The notes beneath the pieces were generated by a model, which did no database searches, was not told the DNA's origin, and was given only the letters and a program-made list of their open reading frames with translations. Shown here one piece after another: positions 40,914-59,395 of a DNA stretch of 64,000 nucleotides. Position 1 is the stretch's first letter. Each line of letters begins with the position of its first letter. The translations under genes and the position numbers were made by a program. The DNA is from Herpetosiphon aurantiacus DSM 785 (GTDB lineage: Bacteria > Chloroflexota > Chloroflexia > Chloroflexales > Herpetosiphonaceae), in assembly GCA_000018565.1 (NCBI GenBank), contig CP000875.1, forward strand, positions 697,199 through 761,198. Reading direction: 5' to 3'.

Positions 40914-40933
40914 CTTCTTTTTACAATTGATAT

Positions 40934-44348: not shown

Positions 44349-44708
44349 ATGGCTGATACGACACCATCACCATCGAGCATCAAAGTGGAGCACCAGATTC
44401 ACTTCACGCTTGATGGCTTTCCCTGCACCACCTCGGTAGCAGGTGCGACCGCCGATCAACTCAAGGTGGTGATTGATCGCCTGAAAGCGATCGGCGCACA
44501 ACCACCCACGACACACCCAGCTCACCCAACCCAACCAGTCGCCGCCGTTGCACCACCCAGCGTTCCCGCTCAACGCCTCTGCCCAACGCATGGAACACCC
44601 TTACAACTGCGCCAAGGCACGCGACGCGGTGGCAAGCCCTACAAATTTTGGAGCTGCAACCATACCGATGCGGATGGCAACTGGTGTGATCATACCGAGA
44701 AGCCATAA
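44349..44708 (+). CDS. Early prophage protein with a zinc-ribbon-like C-terminus
   Basis: A 119-aa protein. The N-terminal half (SIKVEHQIHFTLDGFPCTTSVAGATADQLKVVIDRLKAIG) is followed by a Pro/Thr/His linker (about residues 50-75), and a C-terminal metal-site-like segment (about 77-117) with C-P-T-H-G, F-W-S-C-N-H and W-C-D-H, resembling topoisomerase-type zinc fingers. It may bind DNA or RNA. AGAGGA precedes the ATG. Last clear gene of the early unit. It is an assignment of shape, not of function. Confidence 0.75.
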   Translation: MADTTPSPSSIKVEHQIHFTLDGFPCTTSVAGATADQLKVVIDRLKAIGAQPPTTHPAHPTQPVAAVAPPSVPAQRLCPTHGTPLQLRQGTRRGGKPYKFWSCNHTDADGNWCDHTEKP

Positions 44709-44717
44709 GGGAACTCC

Positions 44718-44804
44718 ATGTACCTTCATCCAAAAACCATCACTTCAGTACAGCTAGGTCTCAATGCGCAGTCCCTGAACTCTGGCAGCGATCATCTGTA
44801 CTAG
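44718..44804 (+). CDS. Possible 28-aa peptide
   Basis: ATG 44718 has AAGGGAA 5 bp upstream, 10 bp after the previous stop, and a 28-codon frame follows (MYLHPKTITSVQLGLNAQSL...). Nothing but the ribosome site and position supports it. Confidence 0.25.
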   Translation: MYLHPKTITSVQLGLNAQSLNSGSDHLY

Positions 44805-44829
44805 GGGTTACCGCCGAAACGCCAACGAG

Positions 44830-44853
44830 GGGCCATACGTTCTAGTATGGCCC
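44830..44853 (+). terminator. Hairpin at the end of the early unit
   Basis: 9-bp perfect stem GGGCCATAC / GTATGGCCC around GTTCTA. No T run, so possibly Rho-aided or processing only. Confidence 0.45.
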
Positions 44854-44973
44854 ATCGCATTCGCTTCAATGAGGCAGATAGGGTCTGTCGTTGTTCCATC
44901 AGGCATATGCACGCGCACGGCTAGTCATGCATTCAAGCTCAGCTGTGCACGCATTCCGCGCCGCAGCTCCACG

Positions 44974-45918
44974 CTAGTCGCTGCCGGACACCAAACACGC
45001 GGTTGCCCACCAGTAGTCGTACAGTGGGCGGACTTCGACCGCTGCGAAGCCAGCCGCACGTACCAACTCCGCCCACTCCACAATTGGCTGCTCATAGGTT
45101 GTGCGAGCCGCCGTCTGGTCGAAGTATCCCATAAGGACTGGCATCAGAAAGCCTTGGGCAACCAGTCCGCCGTCGTCGGCATACTCGGCCAGTCCACGCT
45201 GGTAGCGGCCTAGGATATCGCGGACTCGCGCCGGGTCGTACATACTGGCAAACTCCGGCACGTCGAACTCGACGATTAGCAGGCGTTGGCCCAGGTCCCG
45301 CAACCGGCGCAGCAGCTCCGGTCGCTCCTCTGGCGGGATTGAGTGCAAGCTGTAGGTGGCTTGGATGATCGTCCAGCTGCTACTCTCCTGACGCGCAAAC
45401 TCCTGCGCGGTGACGGCGAAGGCCTCGATGGGCCGTCCGCTGGCCCCTAAGCGCTCGCGTAGTTCAGCCAGCAGCGCCGCTGACGGCTCGACTACTCCCA
45501 AGCGGTCGATGTTTGGGGTCAGGGCTGGGATCAGGGCGTGGCCGTTGCCAGCACCGATATCCAGCACATCCAGCCGCTCGTACTCGCCATAGGCCGCGTG
45601 CAGGGCCGCGCTCGTCGCTGCATAGAGCGGGATGTTGCCGCCGCCGCCGATGAAGGCCGCGAAAGCTTCGCCGCTGACGTAAACATTGTGCTTGCCTTGG
45701 CTGGCCACCCGACCCAGATAGGCTGCCGCCTCGGTAAATACCCGCTCGTCTGGCGCACCCGCTGCCGCCCGGCTGGCGAAATCGGCGGCACGGGCTACGT
45801 CCTGATGGCCAAACGCCAGCAGCGCGGCGTAGAACAGATCGAGCGGATCAGTGCCAACTGGCTGATCGGCGCGGTAGCCATGCTCGCGGTATGCTTCCCA
45901 AAGCTGCTCAAGACTCAC
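44974..45918 (-). CDS. Class I SAM-dependent methyltransferase, GC-rich cargo gene
   Basis: A 314-aa protein. The N-terminal helical part (about residues 1-115) precedes a Rossmann methyltransferase core with motif I LDVLDIGAGNGHALIPAL (about 118-135), VVEPSAALLAELRERLG, and IIQATYSLHSIPPEERPELLRRLRDLG. It resembles methyltransferase type-11/12 enzymes of small molecules rather than DNA methylases (no DPPY/NPPY). The best start is GTG 45918, with GGAGG 8 bp upstream. By eye about 63% G+C, well above both host and prophage, and reads against the early operon: a recently gained cargo gene. Substrate unknown. Confidence 0.85.
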   Translation of the reverse strand: MSLEQLWEAYREHGYRADQPVGTDPLDLFYAALLAFGHQDVARAADFASRAAAGAPDERVFTEAAAYLGRVASQGKHNVYVSGEAFAAFIGGGGNIPLYAATSAALHAAYGEYERLDVLDIGAGNGHALIPALTPNIDRLGVVEPSAALLAELRERLGASGRPIEAFAVTAQEFARQESSSWTIIQATYSLHSIPPEERPELLRRLRDLGQRLLIVEFDVPEFASMYDPARVRDILGRYQRGLAEYADDGGLVAQGFLMPVLMGYFDQTAARTTYEQPIVEWAELVRAAGFAAVEVRPLYDYWWATACLVSGSD

Positions 45919-46394
45919 TATTGCGTCCTCCAAAACACACGATACACTGTTTGCTGCCCAAGCCACTGATCAGCCGCCGTCAACTCGGAAAAATGCGGTG
46001 TCGGTGGCATCGCGGGCGTTGATGTTGGGGGGATAGTTGCCCATCGATACCCTCAACGAGATATGGATGCGACCACCAGTATGGAGTGTGGGTGATTTCC
46101 TGTCAACGCGTGTGCATATGCCTGGTGAAATAGCGAGTGTCCTCAGCACCGATGGTCGCTGCCATAGTTCGGTAGTCCGCGCGTTCAAGCCCAACCGTAT
46201 GGAAGGAATAGTGTTTGGATGAAGTTACTTTTAAGTTCTCTACGCTGATCGCGAAACTGATAGTATGGTTATCGCGATTGATTGATCGATGATGGATGAC
46301 CAGCCAGCAGTTCAAATCAGGCTGTTGGCGGATGTTTTTTTAGCGCGAAACGGTTATGATAATGCACATTATACAAACCGCTGGAGAGTCGAGC
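45919..46394. other. Integrase upstream gap
   Basis: No gene supported; frames here lack ribosome sites. It holds a TCGCGA pair (about 46239 and 46273) and the inverted repeat ATAATG-CA-CATTAT (46359-46372) just before the integrase, a possible operator. Confidence 0.45.
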
Positions 46395-47381
46395 ATGCAC
46401 GATGATTTTTCACTCGCATTAACCACCCTTGCCGCAACTACCCCAACCGCAATCCAATCAACGACTAATCCCTTCATTGCCTATATCGCCAGTCTGCAAA
46501 GTACCAATAGTCAACGCACGATGGAGAAGCAGCTGCATCGTTTGGCAACAATGATGGGCTTTGCCGATGCGCATGCAGTTCCGTGGTCGCAGCTGCGGGT
46601 TGAACATACCCAAGCCTTGTGGGCCAAGCTCGCCAGCAGTAAATCAGCAGCCACTGCCAACCTGATACTCTCGGCCTTGCGCGGGGTGCTGAAGATGGCG
46701 TGGCGCATGGGCTTAATGACTGGGGAAGATTACACACGAGCGGTTGATCTCAAAACGGTCAAAGGGAACGCACCTGATGCCGCAGCGGGCCGATCGCTCA
46801 CCGCTGCCGAACTCCGCGCCTTATTTGCCGCGTGTGCCGCTGATTCATCACCCATTGGGCGGCGTGATGCAGCGATTCTAGCATTGGCCTATGCTGGTGG
46901 TGGTTTGCGTCGGGCCGAGATCGTCAATCTCGATCTGTCAGACTTCAATCCTGAAACGGCGATGCTGACGATTCGCGGGAAGGGCAATAAAGTGCGGACG
47001 GCGTATGTGCGTGGTGGCGCTCGTGAGGCGCTCGACGAGTGGTTGGCGGTGCGTGGCGACGAAGCTGGGCCACTGTTTTGGCGGTTACAAGCTGGCGGTG
47101 TGGCAGGCCAAATGTACGAGCGTCTCAGTGATCAGGCGATTTATATTTTATGTCAGCGGCGTGGCAAAGAGGCCAATGTACGGCATTTCAGCCCGCACGA
47201 TATTCGACGAACCTTTATCAGTGATCAACTGGATGCGGGAACCGATGTCTTGACCGTGGCTCGGCTGGCTGGCCATAGCAATGCCAACACCACCAGCCGC
47301 TACGATCGTCGGGGTGAACGGGCCAAACAAGCAGCAGCTGATGCTCTGCATGTGCCGTTTATTTCGCAACAGGAGTTGTAA
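46395..47381 (+). CDS. Tyrosine recombinase / integrase
   Basis: Site-specific recombinase, 328 aa. An N-terminal SAM-like core-binding domain (about residues 20-110, FIAYIASLQSTNSQRTMEKQLHRL) precedes a catalytic domain (about 135-320) with Arg172 in GGGLRRAEIVNLDLSDF, H268-D-I-R271 in SPHDIRRTF, a later His (GHSNANTTSRYD) and the nucleophile Tyr about 303. ATG 46395 has GGAG 8 bp upstream. It should catalyse integration and excision of this element. No excisionase is recognised. The last 33 coding bases are repeated at 49134-49166. Confidence 0.95.
   Translation: MHDDFSLALTTLAATTPTAIQSTTNPFIAYIASLQSTNSQRTMEKQLHRLATMMGFADAHAVPWSQLRVEHTQALWAKLASSKSAATANLILSALRGVLKMAWRMGLMTGEDYTRAVDLKTVKGNAPDAAAGRSLTAAELRALFAACAADSSPIGRRDAAILALAYAGGGLRRAEIVNLDLSDFNPETAMLTIRGKGNKVRTAYVRGGAREALDEWLAVRGDEAGPLFWRLQAGGVAGQMYERLSDQAIYILCQRRGKEANVRHFSPHDIRRTFISDQLDAGTDVLTVARLAGHSNANTTSRYDRRGERAKQAAADALHVPFISQQEL
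47347..47379 (+). repeat. 33-bp direct repeat, copy 1 (integrase 3' end)
   Basis: Matches 49134-49166 at 31 of 33 positions, both starting TGCATGTGCCGTTT. It marks the left edge of the segment holding the secreted repeat protein gene. Confidence 0.8.
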
Positions 47382-47498
47382 CATTGCTTCGATCATGGCG
47401 TATCACTTGACGAATATTCAAGAGTCATTACACTAGAGATCTATCATCACTGAGAGATGCTATCTCACGTTTATCACACACTTTTGAGGGAGGTAACT

Positions 47499-49064
47499 AT
47501 GGTATCGTACCATCGTGTCCGTATGCTCTTCGCATTGATCCTGCTTTTCAGTTTATGCAGCACCGCTCCTGCGTCTTCTAGCCAAGCAACATCCCAAGCA
47601 CTTTCCCATGCCGTTATTGATGCTAGCGGGGTTCTTGATAACTGGCAATCACTTGCCATAGGGTCAGATGGATTAGGCTTAATTGCGTATTGGGATGAAA
47701 CAGCTAAAGTACTCAAGGTTGCCCATTGTAATGATGTCGCTTGCCGCACCGCAACTATTACTCCTCTTGTTACAACGACTACCGAGTTCGGGAGTATTGA
47801 ACTTACCATTGGAAGGGATGGTTTAGGGAAAATTATCTATAACGTGGGCGGGCAAATATTCTTAGCCTTTTGCCAAAATATTAGTTGTACGAGTATTCAG
47901 ACTAAACCTATTCACAGTGGTGGAAATAGCCAGCTTCTTATAGGAAGTGATAGTAACCCAATCATTTTTAGTACGACTGGTTCTAGTCCTGACAATTATC
48001 AGATCAAGGTATCACATTGTGATGATCCACAATGTCAAGCTATCACTACAACAAAACTCACCGATACCTTAAAAACATCTTCTCCTTTAGTTGCTGCTAT
48101 CGGTAGTGATGGATTTCCACTTATTTTATACTATGATAATGATCTGCTTCAACACATGCTTATTCACTGTTCCGATGTCGCTTGCCAACAAACAACGACT
48201 TCAGCGCTTCCTATAGCTACCTATCAAGCAAACACCGATAGTGATATGACCATAGGTAGTGATGGATTTCCAATCATTACCTATAAAACTATTCAATTTG
48301 ATCAATTAGGTATCATTCACTGTGAAAATATTCTTTGTACCACCTATACAAATGTGTATCATGATGATTTTTGGCTGGGTACCCATCCATCAGTTATTAT
48401 CAATAGTGATGGATTACCGCTCGTGAGTTACTCTGTTGATCGTAATCAACGCAGGGATCTTTATATTTCCCGTTGTCTTGACCTTGCCTGTAACGATATA
48501 ACGACCCATATTTTAGATAAAACAACGTGGATAGGGACGCAAGATATGGCGCTCGGAAATGATGGCTTGGTGTTGATCGCCTATCATGATCTCTCTCGAG
48601 CACAATTACGCGTTATCCACTGTAAAGATATTGCCTGTAGTGAAGATGGGGTTAATCTTTTTGCTCAGTATGCACCGATGCTGATGCAAACACCAACATC
48701 GATGGTTGTTCCGATCAATGCAACAGCTATTCCTGATCAAGCAGTCACCACCCTTGGCCAAGTCTTCTTTACGACGTCGATTTCAATTCCTCAGCCCATT
48801 CCTAGCGGTGGGAGATATGTTCTTGCGGGGAATGCACAAGGTACAGCACCAAGCATTGTGGATGATAAAGTGGTTCTCAAAGCAGGAAACCAAACGATTT
48901 TTGAATTTGAGTATGGTGGTACGGGAACTCCTAATCCTACTTTAGTTGAGGTTCCGAATGCCATTATTGAATCACATATTGGACAAACCATTACTATAGA
49001 ATTCCGTGATGTGTATGGTGGACGAATCCAAGCTTCAACGATGTATCTGGTTTGGATTCCCTAG
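47499..49064 (+). CDS. Secreted beta-propeller-like repeat protein
   Basis: A 521-aa exported protein with a signal peptide (about residues 1-30; basic MVSYHRVRM, hydrophobic LFALILLFSLCS, APASS cleavage region). Then at least six repeats of about 50 residues follow, each with G(S/N)DG-hydrophobic-P/G-I-Y ... HC-D-C ... T (IGSDGLGLIAYWDE, IGSDGFPLILYYDN, IGSDGFPIITYKT, INSDGLPLVSYSVD, LGNDGLVLIAYHD), each with a paired HCxDxxC that may form an in-blade disulfide. The C-terminal 110 residues are a separate beta domain. GGGAGG precedes ATG 47499. It is bracketed by direct repeats: likely cargo rather than virion protein. Confidence 0.82.
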   Translation: MVSYHRVRMLFALILLFSLCSTAPASSSQATSQALSHAVIDASGVLDNWQSLAIGSDGLGLIAYWDETAKVLKVAHCNDVACRTATITPLVTTTTEFGSIELTIGRDGLGKIIYNVGGQIFLAFCQNISCTSIQTKPIHSGGNSQLLIGSDSNPIIFSTTGSSPDNYQIKVSHCDDPQCQAITTTKLTDTLKTSSPLVAAIGSDGFPLILYYDNDLLQHMLIHCSDVACQQTTTSALPIATYQANTDSDMTIGSDGFPIITYKTIQFDQLGIIHCENILCTTYTNVYHDDFWLGTHPSVIINSDGLPLVSYSVDRNQRRDLYISRCLDLACNDITTHILDKTTWIGTQDMALGNDGLVLIAYHDLSRAQLRVIHCKDIACSEDGVNLFAQYAPMLMQTPTSMVVPINATAIPDQAVTTLGQVFFTTSISIPQPIPSGGRYVLAGNAQGTAPSIVDDKVVLKAGNQTIFEFEYGGTGTPNPTLVEVPNAIIESHIGQTITIEFRDVYGGRIQASTMYLVWIP

Positions 49065-49085
49065 CTAAATACTATCGTTATCACA

Positions 49086-49134
49086 TAACTAATGACCCCA
49101 TACTTTTTTAGGTATGGGGTCATTAGTTATTTTT
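49086..49134 (+). terminator. Intrinsic terminator of the secreted repeat protein gene
   Basis: Perfect 18-bp stem (TAACTAATGACCCCATAC and complement, 49086-49103 and 49112-49129) with an 8-nt loop, followed by TTTTT. Confidence 0.9.
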
Positions 49135-49166
49135 GCATGTGCCGTTTGTTTCGCAACAGGATTTGT
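49134..49166 (+). repeat. 33-bp direct repeat, copy 2 (integrase-end remnant)
   Basis: 31 of 33 positions equal the integrase 3' end at 47347-47379. It begins immediately at the end of the terminator T run. Sequence after it is unrelated to that downstream of the integrase. Confidence 0.8.
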
Positions 49167-49324
49167 CATATCTCCTTGAAGTTAGATAGAGCGATCGCAA
49201 CGCAAACAACACTTTACTGGATTGCCATGGGGCGTTATTTGCTTGTTGAGAAATCGTTTTATTGGTGTATATTTTTCTACTTGTATCTAGCTTGTTCATC
49301 ATTCTATGATAAGAGCCAATCTAA

Positions 49325-49456
49325 CAGTTGGGCAACTGGAGTCCTAATCCTCAGAACGAACAAGTAATGGCCCGTAGCTCGAAGAAACTCGCTGGCCGTA
49401 TGCTTGATGGTCGAACTTGGGATGAGGTTCCTGATTTGCATCTCATTCATCAATAG
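49325..49456 (+). pseudogene. Remnant C-terminus of a Gp37/Gp68-type phage protein
   Basis: The frame after a stop reads QLGNWSPNPQNEQVMARSSKK, then LAGRMLDGRTWDEVPDLH, and stops at 49456. The KKxAGRxLDGRTWDExP ending is typical of the phage Gp37/Gp68 (DUF5131) family. Only the last 43 codons remain, preceded by a stop, so this is a fragment. A 29-bp hairpin overlaps the stop. Confidence 0.6.
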
Positions 49457-49513
49457 CTATGATCAAAAAGAACCAGAAGCATCACTTCTGGTTCTTTTTG
49501 ATCATAGCTATTG
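49451..49513. terminator. 29-bp perfect inverted repeat, two-way terminator
   Basis: Arms 49451-49479 and 49485-49513 are exact complements around CATCA, with an AAAAAG block in one arm and CTTTTT in the other. It separates the phage gene remnant from the convergent Calx-beta protein gene. Confidence 0.85.
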
Positions 49514-49525
49514 CCGTTGAATAGT

Positions 49526-50758
49526 CTAATATGGACGATTCAAAATACTTATGCGGGTATATCGATTTTGTTCATTGATGCTTGCATTGGAAGGACTATA
49601 GAGATTTAGGGCAAAAAACTCTGTCCCTTCAGTCACATCCCCTGTTGTTATCGGAATAGAAACCACCTTTTCCGTTTGTCCAGCCGAGAAAATAACACTC
49701 CCTTGGGTATTGATATAGTCGTCGATGCTATCGCATTGATTGATATTACAGCCTACGGCTGATAACGAGGTGGTTTTATATGCGACCGATACATCATACG
49801 ATACGGCTGTTGATAGCTTAATTTTGACTTGTAAGGTATTTCCTTCGCGAACCGTATAGGTATTTTGTTCAATCGAGAGTGCTGTTTCTGTATCTAATGC
49901 AGGATTGAACGTGAGTGCATCAAGATTCGTGGTATTGAGAATTTGGTTATTCGAATTTGGAATCGTCATCACATGAATCGTATGGAATTTCTTGCCATTG
50001 GCATCGATATCAAAATTAATCCATTTCTGGTGTACTTGATTCTGACTTTCCTGATCAATAATGCCAATCTCTTCACCATCAACGGTAATAACAACTTTAT
50101 CGTAGTTTGGTGATTGGGTGTAGTAATAGGTGAATGATTGAGCAGGTGTAATTACCCACCATCCTCGACCAGAACTCATTTCTAGTAAGGTATTTTGGAT
50201 TGCCCCTGTTGCTCCATTGATTCCTGATAATGCACCTTGATACATCAGAATGGTTGTTGTGTTATCGAGCCACGATGGTGTAACGATATTTGTGGGCAAG
50301 ATATCAACAATAAAAGCATCGATATTGAAATATCCGCTCGCTCCATTTGCTAATTTAATATCGATTGTATGATTACCGGCTGAGAGTGTCCATGATTGGC
50401 TAACTTGCGACTTACTATAGAGCGAGTTTTGATTAATAATCTCAACCAACTTATTGTCGATAAAAACTTCAGCCTTGCCAAAAGCTGGCCCAGTTTCATA
50501 CATATACGTTATTGTGTTGCCATTGAATGCAAATTGAACACTACTTCCAACAGTGCCTTTGTGATAGCCACCCAGATAGGGATAGGTTCCTGTATTTAGT
50601 ACATTTTCCCATGTACCTTGGTAGGTAAGTGACAGTGAATTATCGTTATACGAGGTGCCTGTGTAATACGGGGGATCAACAGCAACAGCTGCGCTCATTT
50701 TTTGGGGCAATAAGATAACGATGGCGAACAGAATGATCGCATAGCGAATAGATCGCAT
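49526..50758 (-). CDS. Secreted Calx-beta domain protein
   Basis: A 410-aa exported protein. Signal peptide (about residues 1-25, SIRYAIILFAIVILLPQKMSAA). Two consecutive beta-sandwich modules of about 130 residues each resemble lectin or carbohydrate-binding folds (GTVGSSVQFAFNGNTITYMYETGPAFGKAEVFIDNKLVEI, and a similar TYYYTQSPNYDKVVITVDGEEIGII). A C-terminal Calx-beta domain (about 305-408; YTVREGNTLQVKIKLS, FSAGQTEKVVSIPITTGDVTEGTEFFALNL) typically binds calcium and mediates surface contacts. AGGAGG precedes ATG 50758. Cargo of the prophage, oriented against the late operon, so expressed independently. Confidence 0.85.
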   Translation of the reverse strand: MRSIRYAIILFAIVILLPQKMSAAVAVDPPYYTGTSYNDNSLSLTYQGTWENVLNTGTYPYLGGYHKGTVGSSVQFAFNGNTITYMYETGPAFGKAEVFIDNKLVEIINQNSLYSKSQVSQSWTLSAGNHTIDIKLANGASGYFNIDAFIVDILPTNIVTPSWLDNTTTILMYQGALSGINGATGAIQNTLLEMSSGRGWWVITPAQSFTYYYTQSPNYDKVVITVDGEEIGIIDQESQNQVHQKWINFDIDANGKKFHTIHVMTIPNSNNQILNTTNLDALTFNPALDTETALSIEQNTYTVREGNTLQVKIKLSTAVSYDVSVAYKTTSLSAVGCNINQCDSIDDYINTQGSVIFSAGQTEKVVSIPITTGDVTEGTEFFALNLYSPSNASINEQNRYTRISILNRPY

Positions 50759-50839
50759 GGGTAGAACCCTCCTACTAACTAAAGTCTCAACACCCACAGT
50801 ATACGATACTCTATGAAATTTGTTGCAGCAAACCATTGC

Positions 50840-50869
50840 TTGACAAGCGCACATGGGTGCTGGTATAGT
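50840..50869 (+). promoter_or_regulatory. Late promoter
   Basis: Consensus TTGACA (50840-50845), 18-bp spacer, TATAGT (50864-50869). The transcript starts near 50876 and meets an intrinsic terminator about 20 bp later (50894). Confidence 0.75.
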
Positions 50870-50893
50870 ATTCGTACCGTAAGGACGGATGAC

Positions 50894-50929
50894 CGCCTAC
50901 GATGTGTCGCACACATCGGGGCGTTTTTT
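50894..50929 (+). terminator. Terminator in the late leader (tR'-like)
   Basis: CGCC-TA-CGATGTGT pairs with ACACATCG-G-GGCG around CGC, followed by TTTTTT. It lies between the late promoter and the first late gene's GAGGAGG, with no room for another promoter. Unless read through, only a transcript of about 50 nt is made. Confidence 0.8.
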
Positions 50930-50951
50930 ATTTCCCCACCGAGGAGGGGAT

Positions 50952-51326
50952 ATGCTTCCAGAGACGCTACGCACCATCTATGGCGATCCGGATGCGGATG
51001 CAACGGAATTTGGCACCAAGTACTTTGTGTGGGGAACCCCGCCCGATCCGAACGCAGCATTACCCAGCACATCTACGCAGCGACGGCTGTTCGGCGCACG
51101 CTTTACCTATCGGATTCGCCCTGGCGAAAGCAATCACGAATTTGAAGCCCGCGTTGATGCGCTGGCCCTGAAATTCCTGAGCGGCAGCGGCACGCTGTAT
51201 ATTGAAGGCGAAATGACCTTTAGTCGCCATCGCTATACCGAAGCCGCCCTGACCCTGTATCATGCGCCCATTGTGGCTCCCATCGATGTGCCCAAAGTCC
51301 TTCGTCGTCCATCCGCTGCGGCCTAG
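50952..51326 (+). CDS. First late-operon protein, unknown
   Basis: A 124-aa protein. It starts LPETLRTIYGDPDADATEFGTKYFVWG and has a beta-rich middle (FGARFTYRIRPGESNHEFEARVDALALKFLSGSGTLYIEGEMTFSRHRYTEAALTLYHAP is broken by several turns). The total is soluble and without motif. ATG 50952 has GAGGAGGGG directly upstream; the frame to 50889 runs through the terminator and is rejected. It stands between two terminators, so its mRNA depends on read-through of the first. Possibly a minor structural or regulatory protein; I cannot name a family. Confidence 0.75.
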   Translation: MLPETLRTIYGDPDADATEFGTKYFVWGTPPDPNAALPSTSTQRRLFGARFTYRIRPGESNHEFEARVDALALKFLSGSGTLYIEGEMTFSRHRYTEAALTLYHAPIVAPIDVPKVLRRPSAAA

Positions 51327-51378
51327 AGCGCCACCGGAGCAACAATCGAATCATTCGGATAGTCAGTAGTTACGAGAC

Positions 51379-51421
51379 GCGGCTATCAACCCTCAGCTGA
51401 GGGTTGGTGGCCGCTTTTTTT
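51379..51421 (+). terminator. Second terminator in the late operon head
   Basis: Two-tier stem: GCGGC/GCCGC outside and AACCCTC-AGCT-GAGGGTT inside, followed by seven T. It lies between the first and second late genes, 9 bp before the next ribosome site. Confidence 0.82.
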
Positions 51422-51443
51422 ATGCCCGTTGGAGGAACCACCT

Positions 51444-51806
51444 ATGACCGAAGGAGACTTGCTCAAAGTGTATGGCCCCAGCCTCTTTCTGGTGGGGTGG
51501 TTCCTCTACCGCGAAGTCTGGCCACTGCTCAAAGAACGCCTGCGTCCTGACCTTGTGGCTCAACGCCGCAAGGCTGAAAGCCAAGCCGAAGCCAAGGTCT
51601 TGACCGCCTTTATCGACAATACCGTTGCCATGACGGGGCTGAAGCACACACTGGAGGTGGTGTCGGACGAAATGGGCCGTCTGCGCGAAGGGCAAGAAGT
51701 CCATACTCAGTTGTTGGCCGAGATGTTTGGCTTTTTCCGGCAGCCGCGCCCTAGTCCCAATCCCAGCACGCGGCCACGCCCCAGCAAAAAAGGAGAGACC
51801 GTATGA
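51444..51806 (+). CDS. Small membrane protein of the lysis cassette
   Basis: A 120-aa protein with one N-terminal hydrophobic helix (about residues 10-27, YGPSLFLVGWFLYREVWPLL). A charged helical region follows (about 30-95; RRKAESQAEAKVLTAFIDNTVAM, then HTLEVVSDEMGRLREGQEV), with a Pro/Arg-rich tail. Size, topology and position just before the LLH holin suggest a second holin, an antiholin or an i-spanin-like protein. GGAGG precedes ATG 51444, and the ATGA overlap couples it to the holin gene. Function not proven by any motif. Confidence 0.7.
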   Translation: MTEGDLLKVYGPSLFLVGWFLYREVWPLLKERLRPDLVAQRRKAESQAEAKVLTAFIDNTVAMTGLKHTLEVVSDEMGRLREGQEVHTQLLAEMFGFFRQPRPSPNPSTRPRPSKKGETV

Positions 51807-52171
51807 CCACCGCTGTTTCCGCCAGTTTGTTGAGTACTCTTGTGCAGCTGTTGCTCGCCGTGCTTGTGCCGTTGGCGCTCGCCGTCGCCGCGCGGATCGG
51901 TCGCCGCATCGCCCGGGCGTTGGAAGATAAAGCCACGGCGCTGCTCAGTCGCGAAGAGCGGGACACCCTCTATAGCGCGATCAAGGTCGGCCTGCGGGTG
52001 GCCCAAAGCTATGGCATTACGCCGGATGGGGTGCGCCACCAGATTGAAGCCAAGGGCGTGGAGGCCGCAAGTCGCTATCTGACCGAGCTGGGCCTACGCT
52101 TTGATCCGAAGTTCCTCATTGACCTGTTACATGCCGAATATCAGAAGCATTTTGGAGCACCCACGTCATGA
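51803..52171 (+). CDS. LLH-family phage holin
   Basis: A 122-aa inner-membrane protein. N-terminal membrane helix (about residues 8-32, LLSTLVQLLLAVLVPLALAVAA), followed by a charged helical region and a C-terminal KVGLRVAQSYGITPDGVRHQIEAKGVEAASRYLTELGLRFDPKFLIDLLHAEY-type segment (about 60-113) that matches the LLH holin layout. It overlaps the upstream gene as ATGA, and the endolysin gene as ATGA at its end. It should form the lesion that lets the amidase reach peptidoglycan. Confidence 0.8.
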   Translation: MTTAVSASLLSTLVQLLLAVLVPLALAVAARIGRRIARALEDKATALLSREERDTLYSAIKVGLRVAQSYGITPDGVRHQIEAKGVEAASRYLTELGLRFDPKFLIDLLHAEYQKHFGAPTS

Positions 52172-52920
52172 CCTTCGTGATCGATCTGCGCTGGCGCAAA
52201 CATCACCGCCCCGTTGGCACGGGCTGGGACTATCGCCCCAAAGGCATCAAGCCCAGTTCTGCCGTGATTCACACGACCAATGGCAATCGCGGCAGCAGTT
52301 TTGAAGCTGAAGCCGACTACTTGGAAGCCAGTAGCGGGGTGGGTGCGCATTATTTGGTTGGCCAACGCGGCCAGATTGCCGAGATTCTGCCGCCGATCTA
52401 TCGGGCCTGGCATGCCGGAGCCGCTAAGGACGACTGGATCAATAGTCGCTCGATTGGCATCGAATGCCATCACGCGGTTGGTGAGGCATGGACTCACGAG
52501 CAACGCGCGGCCCTCGCATGGCTCTGCCAACGCCTGATGGCCGACTGGTCAATTGTCCTCGGCGCGATCGAAACCCATCGCTTTGTGGCTTTGCCTGCGG
52601 GACGCAAGCCCGATCCTTCCGACTGGACGGATCGCAGCTTCTATGACTGGCGAGCGGCCCTGATCGCTCCGGTCCAACCAGCCGGAACCTATCCGGTGGC
52701 GCTTGAACTCAAAGTGGCATGGCAAAGCAGTGGTGGTCTGTGGCATCCGTCGCAATTTGCGCCGGGCTATGCCCTGACTCCCTTCTTTCGCCATCCTGAT
52801 GGCCATCAGTATCAACTCTTCGAGCGCAGCGGCGCACGCTTTACACCGCAGGGCACGATCGAATGGTTGTTTACCGAAGAAGTGGAACGTTTGAAACAGT
52901 GGTGGCGAACCCACCCATAA
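52168..52920 (+). CDS. Endolysin, N-acetylmuramoyl-L-alanine amidase (Amidase_2)
   Basis: A 250-aa phage lysin that cuts the MurNAc-L-Ala bond. The amidase_2 domain (about residues 25-165) has zinc ligands in AVIHTTNG and ETHRFVALPAGRKPDPSDW, and AWHAGAAKDDWINSRSIGIECHH around the catalytic region. The C-terminal 80 residues (GTYPVALELKVAWQSSGGLWHPSQF to WLFTEEVERLKQWW) look like a separate wall-binding or cap module. There is no signal peptide, so it depends on the holin encoded just upstream. Its start overlaps the holin stop. Confidence 0.92.
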   Translation: MTFVIDLRWRKHHRPVGTGWDYRPKGIKPSSAVIHTTNGNRGSSFEAEADYLEASSGVGAHYLVGQRGQIAEILPPIYRAWHAGAAKDDWINSRSIGIECHHAVGEAWTHEQRAALAWLCQRLMADWSIVLGAIETHRFVALPAGRKPDPSDWTDRSFYDWRAALIAPVQPAGTYPVALELKVAWQSSGGLWHPSQFAPGYALTPFFRHPDGHQYQLFERSGARFTPQGTIEWLFTEEVERLKQWWRTHP

Positions 52921-53028
52921 TGTCGCTTCGGCGACGATCAGCGGCGGTGCGGCTGCGCCGTGGGCGGGGCTAGAGCAGCAATGTGACTGTGTTCCCCCGC
53001 CCCACCGCAAACTTTTCAAGGAGATCGC

Positions 53029-53310
53029 ATGCCACGTCGCCTTCCGGCTGACCAAATCACGCTGTTTTGGCAGGCCTATGATGCCAGTGGCAATGCAAGT
53101 GCAGCGGGGCGGATTGCGGGCCTGAGTAAAGACCAAGCCCATCGCCTGCTCAAGAAACGCGGGGAGCGTCCAGTGGCCACGGTCACACGAGCGCAACTCG
53201 AAGCGGTGCTTGAGCAGGTTGAGACGCTGGCGACCGAGGTGCAGGCCGTGCGCCAACGGCTTGTGCGGTTGGTCGCCTTGTTGCCAGCACCACCCATTTC
53301 GAATCACTAA
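53029..53310 (+). CDS. Small HTH protein of the packaging region
   Basis: A 93-aa protein. A helix-turn-helix (about residues 5-42; PADQITLFWQAYDASGNASAAGRIAGLSKDQAHRLLKK) is followed by a Leu-zipper-like heptad helix (about 48-82; AQLEAVLEQVETLATEVQAVRQRLVRLVALL). AAGGAG lies before ATG 53029, after a 108-bp GC-rich spacer with small hairpins. It precedes the terminase small subunit, which also has an HTH; a DNA-recognition accessory for packaging or a late regulator are both possible. Confidence 0.75.
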   Translation: MPRRLPADQITLFWQAYDASGNASAAGRIAGLSKDQAHRLLKKRGERPVATVTRAQLEAVLEQVETLATEVQAVRQRLVRLVALLPAPPISNH

Positions 53311-53362
53311 TCCATTCATACCGAATCATTTCGAATCATTGTCGCATCACCCTGAGGCTGCC

Positions 53363-53890
53363 ATGGGACGCAAAAGCACGATTACCGATGAGCTTGCCAA
53401 CCAGCTGCTCGCCGCTGCCAAAGCGGGATCGAGCCAACGCCAGATCGCGCGGGACTTCGGCTTGTCGGTCAGCACCGTGCAGCGCTTTTTCGAATCACTG
53501 CCGACGGCGACCGCGCCGACGCTCATGCAACATGCGGCGGTCGTCGAACGGGCTGGCTCGTCCCTCTGGGATAGTCGTGCGGCGCTCAGTGACAACTACC
53601 AACGGGTGCTCGATCTGGTGAACAAGCTCGAAACGGGCATTGTCGAAGTTGATGGTGAGTACACCAGTCGCACGCCGATTGCCGTGCATGTGGCGGCGCT
53701 GCGCGAAGTGCGCGAACACATCAAAACCAGTTTGGCCATTCTCAAGTTGTTGGTTGATGTCGATGAAGTGCGCCGCTTCCAACAAGCGGTGCTGACAGCG
53801 ATTGGAGAGGCCGATGAATCGACCAAGCAACGGATTCTCGCCACCCTCCAAGCGCGACACGCTCTGGAGTTCCCTGTTTTCCGATCTTAG
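53363..53890 (+). CDS. Terminase small subunit (probable)
   Basis: A 175-aa protein. An N-terminal HTH (about residues 5-42; ITDELANQLLAAAKAGSSQRQIARDFGLSVSTVQRFFESLP) is followed by helical oligomerisation segments (about 65-160). It lies directly before the large terminase, overlapping it by 77 bp in another frame, which is the usual small-subunit place. GAGG lies 7 bp before ATG 53363; the longer frame to 53210 runs through the previous gene and is rejected. The function is inferred from the HTH, size and position: it would recognise the packaging site. Confidence 0.75.
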   Translation: MGRKSTITDELANQLLAAAKAGSSQRQIARDFGLSVSTVQRFFESLPTATAPTLMQHAAVVERAGSSLWDSRAALSDNYQRVLDLVNKLETGIVEVDGEYTSRTPIAVHVAALREVREHIKTSLAILKLLVDVDEVRRFQQAVLTAIGEADESTKQRILATLQARHALEFPVFRS

Positions 53891-55334
53891 CCTTGCCGTT
53901 GGCGGGAAACGCACGGTGTTGCCCTATGCCCATGATCCGGTGGCCTATGCGCGGGAGGTGTTAGGGGAAGTTTGGTGGACGAAGCAGGAACTGATCGCGC
54001 GGTCGTTGCTCACGCCGCCGTATCGCACGTTGGTCAAAGCGTGTCATAAGGTTGGCAAAACCCACCTTGGCGGCGGCTTAGTCAACTGGTGGTACGACAG
54101 TTTTGACCCGGGACTGGTGCTGACAACCGCCCCCACCGATCGCCAAGTGCGTGACCTGCTTTGGAAGGAAGTGCGCATGCAGCGGCGCGGACGCGCGGGC
54201 TTTACTGGCCCTAAGTCGCCGCGCTTGGAGAGTACGCCCGACCATTTCGCCCATGGCTTCACGGCCAAAGATGGTGATTCGTTTCAAGGCCATCACTCGC
54301 CGCATACCCTGTTCATCTTTGATGAAGCGGTTGGCGTGGCCAGTGTGTTTTGGGAAACCGCAGAGTCGATGTTCAACGAGGGCGGCGCATGGCTGGCGAT
54401 TTTCAATCCGACCGATACCAGCTCGCAAGCCTATGCTGAGGAATTGAGTGGGGGTTGGCATGTCATTTCGATGAGCGTGCTCGAGCATCCTAACATTCTG
54501 GCCGAATTGCAGGGCTTGCCGCCGCCGTTTCCCTCGGCGATTCGCCTGAGCCGCGTCGATACCTTGCTCAAAAAGTGGTGTCGCGCACTCAGCCCCGAAG
54601 AACCAAAACGCGCCACCGATATTCACTGGCGGGATGCCTGGTATCGGCCTGGACCGATCGCCGAAGCGCGGTTGTTGGGCCGTTGGCCATCCCAAGCGAC
54701 CAACAATGTTTGGAGCGATGGCGCGTTTCAGGTGGCAGAAAGCCTGCTGTTGCCTGCGAGTGATGAACCGTGCGAGCTGGGCTGTGATGTCGCCCGCTAT
54801 GGCGATGACTTTACCGAGATTCATGTGCGCCGTGGCGGCCACAGTCTCTATCACGAAGCGGCCAATGGCTGGAGCACGGTCGAAACCGCAGGGCGCTTGA
54901 AGCAATTGGCCAACGAATATGGGCGACGATGTGGGGTTGATGGTCGCGCCGTTGCGGTCAAAATCGACGATGACGGCATCGGCGGCGGCGTGGTCGATCT
55001 CGCCGACGGCTATACCTTCCTCGGAGTCAGTGGGGCACGCACGGCCTACGATCCCGAGAAGTATCCCAATCGCCGTAGCGAATTATGGTTCAGTGTGGCC
55101 GAACGGGCGATGGAGCAACGTCTGAGCTTCGTTGCGCTCGATGCGGAAACCCGCCGCGAGCTGCGTCGCCAAGCGATGGCTCCCACGTGGAAGCAAGATA
55201 GTCAGGGACGGCGGGTCGTCGAGCCAAAAGCCGACACCAAGAAACGGATTAAGCGCAGTCCCGATGGCATGGATGCGGTCAATTTGGCCTATGCCCCCGC
55301 CCCGATCGTCAGTTTTGGCCCAAGTCTTTGGTAA
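53814..55334 (+). CDS. Terminase large subunit
   Basis: DNA-packaging motor ATPase/nuclease, 506 aa. Walker-A-like KACHKVGKTHLGGG (about residues 74-87), Walker B TLFIFDEAVGV (about 164-174) with catalytic Glu, and coupling motif AIFNPTDTSS. The C-terminal RNase H-like nuclease has acidic residues in LGCDVARYGDDFTEI (about 322), VKIDDDGIGGGVVDL (about 382) and SPDGMDAVNLAYA near the end. ATG 53814 with GGAGAGG upstream; TTG 53802 is an alternative. The portal gene follows after 19 bp. Confidence 0.93.
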   Translation: MNRPSNGFSPPSKRDTLWSSLFSDLSLAVGGKRTVLPYAHDPVAYAREVLGEVWWTKQELIARSLLTPPYRTLVKACHKVGKTHLGGGLVNWWYDSFDPGLVLTTAPTDRQVRDLLWKEVRMQRRGRAGFTGPKSPRLESTPDHFAHGFTAKDGDSFQGHHSPHTLFIFDEAVGVASVFWETAESMFNEGGAWLAIFNPTDTSSQAYAEELSGGWHVISMSVLEHPNILAELQGLPPPFPSAIRLSRVDTLLKKWCRALSPEEPKRATDIHWRDAWYRPGPIAEARLLGRWPSQATNNVWSDGAFQVAESLLLPASDEPCELGCDVARYGDDFTEIHVRRGGHSLYHEAANGWSTVETAGRLKQLANEYGRRCGVDGRAVAVKIDDDGIGGGVVDLADGYTFLGVSGARTAYDPEKYPNRRSELWFSVAERAMEQRLSFVALDAETRRELRRQAMAPTWKQDSQGRRVVEPKADTKKRIKRSPDGMDAVNLAYAPAPIVSFGPSLW

Positions 55335-55353
55335 GAAAGCAGCAGGAATGGGT

Positions 55354-56721
55354 ATGTTTCCACCAACCGCCACCAGTAGCATCATTAGTCAGCACCTGCA
55401 TGGGCAACGCGTGGCTGATGATTTTCAGCGCTTGCAGCAGTTTCGCGCGGCGTGGGAAGCCTATCGCAAACAGGATACGCCCCCGCTGCCAATCGAAGCC
55501 GGACGACCCAACGACAACGTGCGGGTCAATCTGATTAAGCTGATTGTCCAGACCTCAGTCTCGTTCTTGTTTGGCGATCAGGTGGCGTTTAGCGTGCCTG
55601 ATGCCCCGCCTGACGACCCACGCATCCAGTATCTTGATCGTATCTGGAATGCGGCCAAAAAGATGACGTGGCTCTACAAACAAGGCATCAACGGGGGCTT
55701 GTGTGGCCACATCTTTGCGCGGATCTATCCAGAGCAGCCGCTGCCGCGCATCGTGATTCTCGATCCGGCGACCGTGACCGTGCGCTGGGCGGCGGACGAT
55801 CTGGATCGGGTGGAATGCTACCTGATTGACTACAGTGCCTACGAATGGCAGGGCAATCGTGAAGTGCTCGTGAGTATCCGCCAACGCATCGAGCGCACTG
55901 ATACCGGCTGGCGCATTCTTGACCAACGCAGCCAGCCCGATAAACAGGCCTTTGATACCCTGCATGAAGCGCCATGGCCCTATCCGTTCCCGCCGATCGT
56001 CGATAGTCAAAACCTCGCCGCGCCGAATGAATACTGGGGCGAGGCCGATATCACGCCCGACCTGATTGCCCTGGTCAATGCGGGCGATTTCACCTTATCC
56101 AATCAACAACGGATTGTGCGCTTCTATGCCCAGCCGCTCACCGTGGCCAAGGGGATGGACCCTGCGCAGCTCAAGCATGGGCGCGACCGCACGGTCTTTA
56201 TTCCGCCCAATGCCGACCTGAGCATTGTCGAGATGCAGAGCGAGTTGGCGGCCAGTCTTGACCACCACAGCCGGATCAAGAGCAGTATTCACGAGGTAGC
56301 CCAAACACCAGAGATTGCGACGGGCAAGGTCGAGGATCTGGGCAACCTGAGCGGCTTAGCCTTGCAAATCCTCTATGGCCCCTTACTGCAAAAGACCGTG
56401 CAAAAACGCATGCTCTATGGCGATTTCCTGAGCGAACTCAATCGCCGCTTGCTGATGATTGGCGGCTTTCCCGAGACCACGACCACGGTGGTATGGGATT
56501 CGATGCTGCCCACCGACCCACAGGCCGAACGCGTCGTCGCACAGGCCGATCGCACGCTCGGCGTAAGTGAAGCCACGCTGTTGACCCAACTGGGCTATGA
56601 CCCCGCCCATGAACGCGAGCAGCGGCAGGCCGAAACGCCGCCCGACCACGACCCCATGACATCCAAAGGAGATGCTGATGATTCGAATCCTGATGCCGCA
56701 GCGCCGACTGAACGCCGATGA
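55354..56721 (+). CDS. Portal protein (SPP1 gp6-like)
   Basis: A 455-aa head-vertex protein through which DNA enters and leaves. Visible portal traits: NDNVRVNLIKLIVQTSVSFLFGDQVAFSVPD near the N-terminus, the beta-rich stem with RVECYLIDYSAYEW and VLVSIRQRIERTDTGW, PPIVDSQNLAAPNEYWGEADI, and the long helical crown with RIKSSIHEVAQTPEIATGKVEDLGNLSGLALQILYGPL. I chose ATG 55354 because AGCAGGA lies 7 bp upstream; ATG 55348 is too close to it, and the frame to 55132 overlaps terminase. The C-terminal tail is acidic and overlaps the next gene. Confidence 0.92.
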   Translation: MFPPTATSSIISQHLHGQRVADDFQRLQQFRAAWEAYRKQDTPPLPIEAGRPNDNVRVNLIKLIVQTSVSFLFGDQVAFSVPDAPPDDPRIQYLDRIWNAAKKMTWLYKQGINGGLCGHIFARIYPEQPLPRIVILDPATVTVRWAADDLDRVECYLIDYSAYEWQGNREVLVSIRQRIERTDTGWRILDQRSQPDKQAFDTLHEAPWPYPFPPIVDSQNLAAPNEYWGEADITPDLIALVNAGDFTLSNQQRIVRFYAQPLTVAKGMDPAQLKHGRDRTVFIPPNADLSIVEMQSELAASLDHHSRIKSSIHEVAQTPEIATGKVEDLGNLSGLALQILYGPLLQKTVQKRMLYGDFLSELNRRLLMIGGFPETTTTVVWDSMLPTDPQAERVVAQADRTLGVSEATLLTQLGYDPAHEREQRQAETPPDHDPMTSKGDADDSNPDAAAPTERR

Positions 56722-57259
56722 TGGCGGGGGCAGTGGTGGTGATCCCACGCCACCTGCTGCGCCGCCAAGTCCTACGCCGACCGTGCCCGTTGTCCCGCCC
56801 ACACCGCCAGCAGCACCACCCGCCGCTGTGCCACCTGCTGCGCCGCCTGCTGCGGATGCCGGAATACCGGACTTGCAGGCACGCTTGGCCACGTTGGAAA
56901 CCCAACTCGAAGCCGATCGGGCGGCGTTGCGCAGCGAGCGCGGCGCTCGATTGATTGAGCAAACCGCTGCGGCCCATGGCCTCGATGCGGGGTTACTGGG
57001 GCGCTTGGTTACGCCGGAGTTTGATGAGCAGGGCCAGCCCAAGCCGCTCGATGCCGCGATTGCCAGCTTGCTTACGACCTATCCCTACTTGGCCAAGCCA
57101 GCTGCTGGTGGAACGGCTGCGCCTGCTCCGGTCGGAACCAGTCCAGCCAATCCGGCGCGGACACCAGCCCTGACCAAGGCGGCGATTGAACGCATGACTC
57201 CCGAGCAAATCAATACCAACTGGGATGCAATCCAAGCCTACTTAGCTCGCCAAGGCTAA
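56678..57259 (+). CDS. Scaffold-like head protein with a Pro/Ala linker
   Basis: A 193-aa protein. A short basic start, then a low-complexity Gly/Pro/Ala linker (about residues 15-62, PPTPPAAPPAAVPPAAPP-type), a coiled coil (about 65-95, LQARLATLETQLEADRAALRSERGAR), a small helical domain (LIEQTAAAHGLDAGLLGRLVTPEF), and another linker ending in ITKAAIERMTPEQI-like helix. Position between portal and capsid and this layout fit a scaffolding protein. ATG 56678 is 6 bp after AAAGGAG. It overlaps the portal gene end by 44 bp in another frame. Confidence 0.78.
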   Translation: MIRILMPQRRLNADDGGGSGGDPTPPAAPPSPTPTVPVVPPTPPAAPPAAVPPAAPPAADAGIPDLQARLATLETQLEADRAALRSERGARLIEQTAAAHGLDAGLLGRLVTPEFDEQGQPKPLDAAIASLLTTYPYLAKPAAGGTAAPAPVGTSPANPARTPALTKAAIERMTPEQINTNWDAIQAYLARQG

Positions 57260-57298
57260 GCATTATCCGCACGCATGGCGTGCCAGAAAGGAACCACG

Positions 57299-58150
57299 AT
57301 GGCGCTGACTAATTTCATTCCAGTGGTCTGGAGTGCGCGGATTCTCTCGAATCTGCATCGTGCCCATGTTTACGGGCAAGCAGGCGTGGTCAATCGCGAG
57401 TATGAGGGCGAGATTCGCGATGCAGGCGATACCGTCAAGATTAACAGCATTGGCCCGGTCACGATTGGCAATTACACCAAGAATACCAACATTGGCGACC
57501 CTGAAACCTTGACGGATGCCCAAATGACCTTGCTGATCAACCAAGCCAAATACTTCAACTTCCAAGTTGATGATATCGATCGCGCTCAACAAAAACCCAG
57601 CGTGATGGATGAGGCCATGAAAGAAGCCAGCTATGGCCTGCGCGATGTCAGCGATGGCTTTATCGCCTCGCTCTATACGGGCGTGGCCGCTGGCAATGTG
57701 ATTGGCAACGACACCACGCCTGTCACGCCCACCAGTGCCAATGCCTACGATTACTTGGTGGATTTGGGCACGCTGCTCGATGAGGCGAATGTGCCATCCG
57801 AAGGCCGCTGGACGATCGTGCCGCCATGGTTTCACGGCTTATTGCTCAAAGATGATCGCTTCGTCGGCGTTGGCTCGGCAAGCAGCGATCAGGTGTTGCG
57901 CAATGGTCAGATTGGTTCTGCTGCGGGGTTTAGCGTGTTGAAGTCGAATAGCGTGCCCAACGTGGCGGGAGCCAAATACAAGATTATGGCAGGTCACCCC
58001 ATGGCAATCTCGTTTGCCGAGCAAATCGTCAAGGTCGAAGGCTATCGTCCGGAAAAGCGCTTTGCCGATGCGGTGAAAGGCTTGCATGTCTATGGCGCGA
58101 AGGTCGTGCGGCCCACCGCCTTTGCCGTGATGACCGCCAATCGGAGTTAG
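57299..58150 (+). CDS. Major capsid protein
   Basis: A 283-aa coat protein, HK97-fold type (P22-coat-like branch by its opening). It begins ALTNFIPVVWSARILSNLHRAHVYGQAGVVNREYEGEIRDAGDTVKI, then SYGLRDVSDGFIASLYTGVA, GRWTIVPPWFHGLLLKDDRFVGVGS, FSVLKSNSVP and HPMAISFAEQIVKVEGYRPEKRFADAVKGLHVYGAKVVRP, the typical P-domain/A-domain order. AAAGGA lies before ATG 57299. The longer frame to 57275 adds MACQKGTT. Expected to be the most abundant late product. Confidence 0.92.
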   Translation: MALTNFIPVVWSARILSNLHRAHVYGQAGVVNREYEGEIRDAGDTVKINSIGPVTIGNYTKNTNIGDPETLTDAQMTLLINQAKYFNFQVDDIDRAQQKPSVMDEAMKEASYGLRDVSDGFIASLYTGVAAGNVIGNDTTPVTPTSANAYDYLVDLGTLLDEANVPSEGRWTIVPPWFHGLLLKDDRFVGVGSASSDQVLRNGQIGSAAGFSVLKSNSVPNVAGAKYKIMAGHPMAISFAEQIVKVEGYRPEKRFADAVKGLHVYGAKVVRPTAFAVMTANRS

Positions 58151-58184
58151 AACAGATGGGCGATTGCCGAGTAAGGAGCGCTAT

Positions 58185-58340
58185 ATGTGGGTGTTGAATA
58201 CCGAAACGGGTGTGACGTGGGAAGTCGATGGCGAGCTGGCCGATCGCCTCGCCGCTGATCCCGCTTATCGCGTCGTCGATGCGCCGCTGGATGAGGCTGA
58301 TGCAAAGCCAGCCAAGAAAGCCCCAACCAAGGAAGGATAA
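58185..58340 (+). CDS. Very small head protein (51 aa)
   Basis: ATG 58185 has AAGGAG 6 bp upstream. The product starts MWVLNTETGVTWEVDGELAD, then RLAADPAYRVVDAPLDEAD, with a basic Lys/Ala/Pro tail. It sits between the capsid and connector genes with tight spacing on both sides. Small proteins with this WVLN...G..WEV start are common at this place in siphovirus operons. Role unknown. Confidence 0.7.
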   Translation: MWVLNTETGVTWEVDGELADRLAADPAYRVVDAPLDEADAKPAKKAPTKEG

Positions 58341-58346
58341 GCCACC

Positions 58347-58934
58347 ATGCTGTATGTGAGCGTTGCCGAAGTCCAAGCCCAGTCTGAGGATCTGCCTGCC
58401 GATCCTGCGCTGCTGGAACCCTATGTGGTGCGGGCCTCGGATATTGTGCGCTCGGCCCTTCGCGCCTTGCTGCACGATCCGACCTTTGAGTTTGTGCCCA
58501 ATCCGGTGGCCACGATGCGCGTGGTCACCGGATTGCCGCTGCCGACCTTGACGCTCGCAGCCCATGTGATTGGCAGTATTAGCCTGATTGAGCAACGGCT
58601 GCACGGCGCATGGCAGCCGCTGGCGGCGACGGCGTGGCTCGAAGATGCATGCGGGGTGCTGCATGCGGACGCGGTGTGGGATGGCTATTGGGCCACGAGC
58701 TGGACGGATCATGCGCTGTATCGGATTACGGCCATTTGGGGTTATGGGGCCGTGCCGCCTGCGGTCGTCGATGTGGCGCTGCAGCTGACCATTAATCTCT
58801 ATCGCTCGCGCACCACGGGCGGCATGATCGATAGCGTTGGCGTGCATGGGCAGGGCATGACGCGGGTGGTAGCAGGCTTGACCAAGCAACAACTGGCGAT
58901 TTTGGAGAGTGTGGTTGCGCCATGGCGAGCCTAA
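58347..58934 (+). CDS. Head-tail connector/adaptor protein (probable)
   Basis: A 195-aa protein of mixed helices: LYVSVAEVQAQSEDLPADPALLEPYVVRASDIVRSALRALLHD at the N-terminus and VPPAVVDVALQLTINLYRSRTTGGMIDSVGVHG near the C-terminus, the latter a helix typical of gp6/gp15-like connectors. GAAGGA precedes ATG 58347. It follows the capsid and 51-aa genes and overlaps the gp10-like gene by 13 bp. The assignment rests on position and the all-helical adaptor shape, not on a signature motif. Confidence 0.7.
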   Translation: MLYVSVAEVQAQSEDLPADPALLEPYVVRASDIVRSALRALLHDPTFEFVPNPVATMRVVTGLPLPTLTLAAHVIGSISLIEQRLHGAWQPLAATAWLEDACGVLHADAVWDGYWATSWTDHALYRITAIWGYGAVPPAVVDVALQLTINLYRSRTTGGMIDSVGVHGQGMTRVVAGLTKQQLAILESVVAPWRA

Positions 58935-59395
58935 GAACCGTGGCTATGGCGCTCCAACGCGGTGTGCCACCCCCATGGCGGGCCGAGGTGCTGCAACGGG
59001 TGGTGCTCACGGTCAAAAGCGCGATCGAGCAAGCGACTCCGATCAAAGAGGGGCATCTCAAGGCCAATACGCGCCACGAAATCCTGAGCACGGGGGCCAA
59101 AGGCCGAATTTATAACCGCACGCCCTATGCCGTGTTTGTCCATGCGGGTACGAAGCCGCATGTGATTCTGCCCAAATTCACCTCGCGCGAAGCGGCTCGC
59201 ACGATCGGGGGCGGTGCGGCGCTGCTGGCGTTCCAAATTGGTGGCCGCTGGGTGCGCACGCGGATGGTTCGCCACCCGGGCACACGCGCGAATCCGTTCA
59301 TGCGGCGCGGCCTGACCGACGCGCGGCCCAGTCTGTCCTTGCTGCTGAAGCTGGCTGCTGCCGACTTAATGAGTGAGTTACGAGGTCGCCCATGA
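58922..59395 (+). CDS. HK97 gp10-like head-tail joining protein
   Basis: A 157-aa protein. A helix (VLQRVVLTVKSAIEQATPIKEGHLKANTRHEI) is followed by the characteristic beta segment GAKGRIYNRTPYAVFVHAGTKPHVILPKF, and RTRMVRHPGTRANPFMRRGL before a C-terminal helix. The PYAVFVHxGTKPHxI and PGTRANPFM blocks are the hallmarks of HK97-gp10/minor capsid families. It overlaps both neighbours by a few bases (ATGA at the end), as in a tightly coupled tail operon. Confidence 0.85.
   Translation: MASLRTVAMALQRGVPPPWRAEVLQRVVLTVKSAIEQATPIKEGHLKANTRHEILSTGAKGRIYNRTPYAVFVHAGTKPHVILPKFTSREAARTIGGGAALLAFQIGGRWVRTRMVRHPGTRANPFMRRGLTDARPSLSLLLKLAAADLMSELRGRP

Follow-up and report, generated by a model that had tools for sequence, protein, structure and literature searches.

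We report that the late genes of a prophage-like element in a Herpetosiphon chromosome follow a promoter (P), an intrinsic terminator (T1), a first late gene and a second, strong terminator (T2). The late operon is probably kept off by termination at T1 and T2 and turned on by an antiterminator loaded at P; this reading is drawn from the sequence and from analogy with described systems. The P-T1-gene 1-T2 layout is more than chance, and its conservation in relatives is a stronger proof of this than the folding and window statistics. All positions (Table 1) are those of the window, i.e., of the whole stretch of 64,000 nucleotides that was analysed. The preliminary description of this stretch had placed the promoter, T1, the first gene, T2 and gene 2 correctly to the base.

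Table 1. Features of the late control region and selected genes of the element (positions in the window)
Feature	Position	Strand	Remarks
Early zinc-ribbon protein, weak antiterminator candidate	44349-44708	+	75-91% identity across five genomes
Integrase	46356-47381		
Late promoter P	50840-50869	+	TTGACA 50840-50845, 18-bp spacer, TATAGT 50864-50869, extended -10 (TGG)
Spacer, candidate antiterminator site	50846-50863	+	ACATGGGTGC / ATGACTACTGG; putative function
-10-like hexamer TACCGT, candidate sigma-dependent pause	50875-50880	+	-1 to +5 of expected start; invariant in five genomes
Expected leader RNA, about 54 nt, ending at T1	50876-50929	+	Predicted from promoter spacing and U-tract
T1, intrinsic terminator	50894-50929	+	12-bp interrupted stem and TTTTTT
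Gene 1, first late gene, 124 aa	50952-51326	+	Without Pfam or PHROG family
T2, strong intrinsic terminator before gene 2	51379-51421	+	16-bp stem 51379-51414, T7 51415-51421
Gene 2, small protein	51444-51806	+	N-terminal hydrophobic stretch; possibly holin-like, by position and sequence only
Gene 3, small protein	51803-52171	+	N-terminal hydrophobic stretch, by sequence only
Endolysin (amidase)	52168-52920	+	Pfam Amidase_2, E=1.2e-23
Terminase large subunit (terL)	53802-55334	+	PHROG 2, E=4.5e-23

The element

The element adjoins two tRNA-Asn genes and consists, in this order, of repressor-like genes, early genes (43421, 44010 and 44349), the integrase, variable cargo and the plus-strand late genes. 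Its right end lies beyond the window, and the late region covered is 50.7-64.0 kb (13.3 kb). The relatives within the genus that match the window are H. llansteffanensis and H. geysericola.

A perfect inverted repeat AATCTAGCTTTATA at 43340-43389 (copies at 43344 and 43372) overlaps and flanks an early promoter scoring 12/12 and is likely a repressor operator. A search for an operator shared with the late promoter found no AATCTAGCTTTATA at P, and a common repressor operator of the two promoters was rejected.

Promoter and terminators

P is strong and, in a sigma-70-like scan, the sole plus-strand promoter scoring at least 9/12 in 50.7-64.0 kb. The window has 15 promoters scoring at least 10/12, and P alone among them is followed by a terminator within 85 nt; for random starts drawn from window positions the rate is about 1% (34/3000).

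Judging by the promoter spacing, the transcript would start near 50876, so that T1 would begin about 18 nt past the start and be preceded by a leader of about 17 nt. In T1, CGCC (50894-50897) pairs with GGCG (50920-50923) around a hairpin at 50900-50918, and TTTTTT occupies 50924-50929. The folding of T1 is modest (z = -1.7; 9/200 shuffles are equally stable), and that of T2 is exceptionally stable (z = -4.9; 0/200 shuffles are as stable). The GGAGG of gene 2 is found just past T2 (at 51431), and no plus-strand promoter of at least 9/12 follows T2. With P the sole plus-strand promoter of this score in 50.7-64 kb, expression of the late genes seems to require a transcript that passes T1 and, past gene 1, T2.

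Two further features were noted here: an inverted repeat GGTA-N9-TACC spans -10/+1 of P, and a CCCC/GGGG hairpin at 50935-50948, kept except for one loop base, could cover the Shine-Dalgarno sequence of gene 1.

Conservation among five Herpetosiphon genomes

The alignment includes the window and the genomes G001, G003, G004 and G005. Homology breaks off at P: by blastn, three of the four other genomes align from 50837-50839 and G003 from 50860, its -35 box with the flank TACTTGACAA being kept in the multiple alignment. The sequence just upstream of P differs in all five genomes. Downstream, only 4 of the 130 columns in 50875-51004 are variable, and the T1 loop accounts for three; no other 130-nt segment in 7.7 kb varies so little, the mean there being 18% of columns. 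The changes in T1 are confined to its 3-nt loop (CGC to GCA), and T2 with its 5' flank (51357-51424) carries a single change in one loop base; the stem and the U-tract of both terminators are unchanged. The argument draws on no more than five closely related genomes and a single clear case of T1 at greater distance. The comparison of related prophages suggested in the preliminary description came out in favour of the arrangement, with the leader and T1 near-invariant in the five genomes and the layout recurring in the viral contig L013 considered below.

All five genomes have the same promoter hexamers, 18 bp apart. The spacer (AGCGCACATGGGTGCTGG, followed by TATAGT) is among the more variable segments of the promoter region: its ATG and CTGG are kept in all five genomes, its interior drifts, and it matches no known element. 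The conserved 130-nt stretch starts at the first base of the hexamer TACCGT, which would have the same register (-1 to +5) as CACGAT of AlpA, given a start at 50876.

Recurrence in other phages

The clearest distant case is L013, a viral contig with a terminase large subunit 75% identical to that of the window, where the sequence has diverged and the P-T1-gene 1-T2 layout is the same. Its promoter TTGCAC-18-TATCCT with an extended -10 is followed by a leader hairpin GGCA..TGCC, T1 (GCGCGG..CCGCGC-TTTTT), a small gene and T2 (GCGCGG..CCGCGC-TCGTTTTT); genes for a membrane protein and an amidase lie past T2. Both terminators fold stably (z = -3.7 for T1 and -5.2 for T2; 0/200 shuffles as stable for each).

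Three further Herpetosiphon prophages whose terminases differ (L024, L025 and L074) have a promoter, a small gene, T2 and gene 2, without T1. Seven pairs of their T2 RNA are kept through double changes. Directly before T2 they carry a conserved multi-hairpin RNA with a GCAA-loop stem (L025:11396-11541; L024:10240-10386, minus strand; L074:7222-7350), which is not in Rfam. A promoter, a small gene and a terminator are also arranged in this way in L082. In L013 and L082 the promoter was recognised by inspection under relaxed criteria, the standard scan giving none in L013, and each of the two cases is weaker than the five-genome alignment. The regions upstream of the terminase in L014 and L083-L087 show no clear promoter-terminator pair; in L014, L083 and L084 this region measures just 2.4-2.9 kb. 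Thus, what recurs is a terminator separating gene 1 from the gene after it, and T1 is common to the family of the window and L013.

A hexamer of the form NANNNT is present in L074 (TACAGT, at the same offset) and in L025 and L024 (AATCGT, one base later); such a hexamer at one of two offsets is expected by chance in about 12% of cases, and each match alone is not significant. No -10-like hexamer is found at the expected offset in L013 and L082.

Outside the late genes, L082 contains at 227-330 a promoter TTGACC-17-TACCCT followed directly by a strong terminator, beside an antisense repressor-like gene.

Gene 1

Codons 1-17 of gene 1 have no third-position changes in the five genomes (0/16 vs 43% elsewhere); terL has one run of this kind that is as long. 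The structure model of the window protein is too poor for use (pLDDT 46). Its relative from L025 is predicted to be beta-beta-alpha-beta-beta (pLDDT 71), and neither PDB nor BFVD offers a significant match to this model. A relationship between the gene 1 proteins of L025 and L013 is probable (pairwise E=1.5e-5). We do not claim common ancestry of all gene 1 proteins: that of the window shares only an ESxxxFxxR motif with the others, without significant similarity. An N-terminal extension of gene 1 from the ATG at 50889 was rejected, since a TGA interrupts it in G004 and G005.

Search for the antiterminator

The preliminary description saw no Q-like gene, and Pfam and PHROG reveal no Q-family protein among the early and late genes scanned; the host genome has only sub-threshold matches to the Q families PF03589 and PF06530, none of them inside the element. 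No AlpA homologue was seen among the scanned genes, and the early and gene 1-3 proteins scanned have no Pfam or PHROG match relevant to GafY/GafZ. Rfam yields nothing relevant at gathering or relaxed thresholds.

An antiterminator is expected to be conserved, since its target is unchanged. The early unknowns and the zinc-ribbon protein had been proposed for this role, and the proposal survives in part. Identity between the window and G001 is 44% for 43421 and 55% for 44010; the zinc-ribbon protein 44349 reaches 79% and the integrase 94%. The first two are disfavoured because they are poorly conserved in G001, although its leader and T1, the presumed target, are nearly unchanged. Among the early genes, 44349 alone is conserved enough to match the unchanged target, and it stays a weak candidate. 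A protein of L082 is weakly similar to it (E=0.018, the same two-part build), and the gene for this protein immediately precedes the late promoter there, the position of the Q gene in lambda; no further relatives were found in the viral contigs. An early gene co-varying with the spacer type (the window equals G001) was also sought, and no early gene groups in this way. The factor may also be gene 1, another late gene, a host factor or the nascent RNA.

Discussion

We presume the following order of events, where the firing of P, the termination at T1 and T2 and the loading of a factor at P are what we infer. Host RNA polymerase with the housekeeping sigma factor would recognise P. By default, transcription would stop at T1 after about 54 nt, and transcripts leaking past T1 would stop at T2 after gene 1. 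The late genes would be expressed once the polymerase leaving P is made terminator-resistant. The likeliest route is that an antiterminator loads at the promoter during a pause just past the start, as do Q of phage 21 and lambda, AlpA and GafZ; a single loading event would then open T1, T2 and the rest of the operon.

The late operon is likely to depend on antitermination because T1 and T2 are conserved, the arrangement recurs in related phages, and P is the sole sigma-70-like promoter on the plus strand of the late region. This reading is weakened by the failure to find the antiterminator, the less conserved spacer, the lack of the hexamer in L013 and L082, and the modest z of T1. The earlier claim of a terminator-gated late operon in need of antitermination is well supported as to the gating, and its other half has yielded no protein.

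Promoter-level processive antitermination is known to be carried out by few proteins (lambda Q, Q21, AlpA and GafZ) that have the mechanism in common and not the sequence. The promoter-loaded antiterminators described require a -10-like sequence just past the start, together with an element located between -35 and -10 to which they bind (PMC9371919); the elements of lambda Q, AlpA and GafZ occupy the latter position, which matches the spacer of P (PMC9371919, PMC7969949, PMC11150451). In AlpA the former is CACGAT at -1 to +5 (PMC9371919).

The lambda PR'-like model put forward earlier fits in that a late promoter is followed by a terminator; phage 21 Q, AlpA and GafZ of the Caulobacter cluster (CcGTA) are closer than lambda itself. 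As in PR'-tR' of lambda and phage 21, the intrinsic terminator stands before the late genes, a candidate -10-like hexamer would lie in the initially transcribed region, and the -35 and -10 boxes leave space for a binding element. Unlike them, the window has a second strong terminator past the first gene, a Chloroflexota host and no Q protein found. AlpA at PalpB-tB is similar in the candidate -10-like hexamer at -1 to +5, the terminator soon past the start and before the first gene, and the lysis genes downstream. However, tB of Pseudomonas aeruginosa PalpB begins 54 nt past the start (PMC7969949, PMC9371919) vs about 18 nt for T1, and the AlpA binding element (ABE) GGGACGN5GGTA is absent at P, GGTA alone being shared. 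GafZ passes a terminator placed after the first gene of the phage-like CcGTA cluster (PMC11150451), and T2 would have to be bypassed likewise; the candidate element between -35 and -10 would be a further likeness. In contrast, terGTA consists of three 150-bp repeats, and the part of that source drawn on here describes no T1-like terminator before the first gene. The likeness is one of layout and not of membership, the window having terminators both before the first gene (as with AlpA) and after it (as with GafZ).

An element of the nascent RNA, located in the leader or between gene 1 and T2, could also make the polymerase resistant without a phage protein, as the put RNA of HK022 near the transcript start suppresses termination in cis. 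The leader, including CCGTAAGGACGG, is invariant, L013 has its leader hairpin, and the multi-hairpin RNA directly before T2 in L025, L024 and L074 covaries; even so, we consider this explanation unlikely, as the roughly 17 nt before T1 in the window look too short for a put-like element and Rfam gives no match even at a relaxed threshold.

It is less easy to accept that T1 is leaky, weakens P and shields the late operon from cargo read-through, the late genes being turned on by derepression at P. The variable cargo upstream of P and the inverted repeat across its -10/+1 would suit such a scheme. However, a shield is expected upstream of P and not downstream, the second, stronger T2 with no promoter after it is left unexplained, and the early operator is absent at P; the scheme seems improbable to us.

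Translational attenuation, with a ribosome from ATG 50889 running through T1 and blocking its hairpin, has little to recommend it: in the window this ATG has a possible Shine-Dalgarno sequence (AAGGA) and a reading frame that runs on without a stop across T1 and is shared with gene 1, but the TGA of G004 and G005 comes before gene 1, the changes in T1 are non-synonymous and in the loop only, and the ATG is just 13 nt past the expected start, which leaves little time. Equally hard to credit is that P-T1 chiefly yields a regulatory RNA of about 54 nt with the late genes driven otherwise, since the invariance of the leader and the short promoter-terminator unit of L082 (about 227-330) are outweighed by the lack of another late promoter of the usual type and by the conserved gene order directly past T1.

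To return to antitermination, we would go further only tentatively. An antiterminator of a new kind, with no sequence relationship to Q, AlpA or GafZ (e.g., the zinc-ribbon protein 44349, or gene 1 together with the structured RNA before T2), might act through the promoter-T1-gene 1-T2 module to control the late genes of prophages throughout Herpetosiphon and of related phages in other hosts, a generalisation that is conceivable and, on balance, somewhat doubtful.

A compact conserved promoter-terminator module in a phylum with little phage biology offers a direct handle for finding another antiterminator: the unit of 130 bp is small enough for a reporter, and the candidate conserved phage genes are a handful. 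It also suggests how lysis genes may be kept silent in these prophages, where the late promoter has no repressor site that can be recognised.

Additional observations

The segment from the integrase to the late promoter (47400-50836) is a variable cargo site, different in all five genomes and bounded by the late promoter. Between the early genes and the integrase, 44710-46240 is found in the window only and includes a minus-strand methyltransferase-like gene (44974-45966); in the other genomes the early genes and the integrase are joined almost directly. G003, G004 and G005 have the element at the same tRNA-Asn (39481-41392 and 50837-64000 were compared), with a host flank identity of 85-90% vs 89-95% for the late genes, the stretch of G001 in this comparison being without host flank. 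Two values so close suggest that the element has long been inherited vertically or that a single site has been used repeatedly.

The intergenic region 52919-53010 before 53029 is near-invariant in the five genomes, with an invariant run of 51 nt; it is GC-rich, has several inverted repeats and no T-run, and is a candidate cos/pac site or RNA element. CGAATCA repeats at 53290-53350, directly ahead of the putative gene for the small terminase, vary in number and spacing among the genomes and are a possible terminase binding site.
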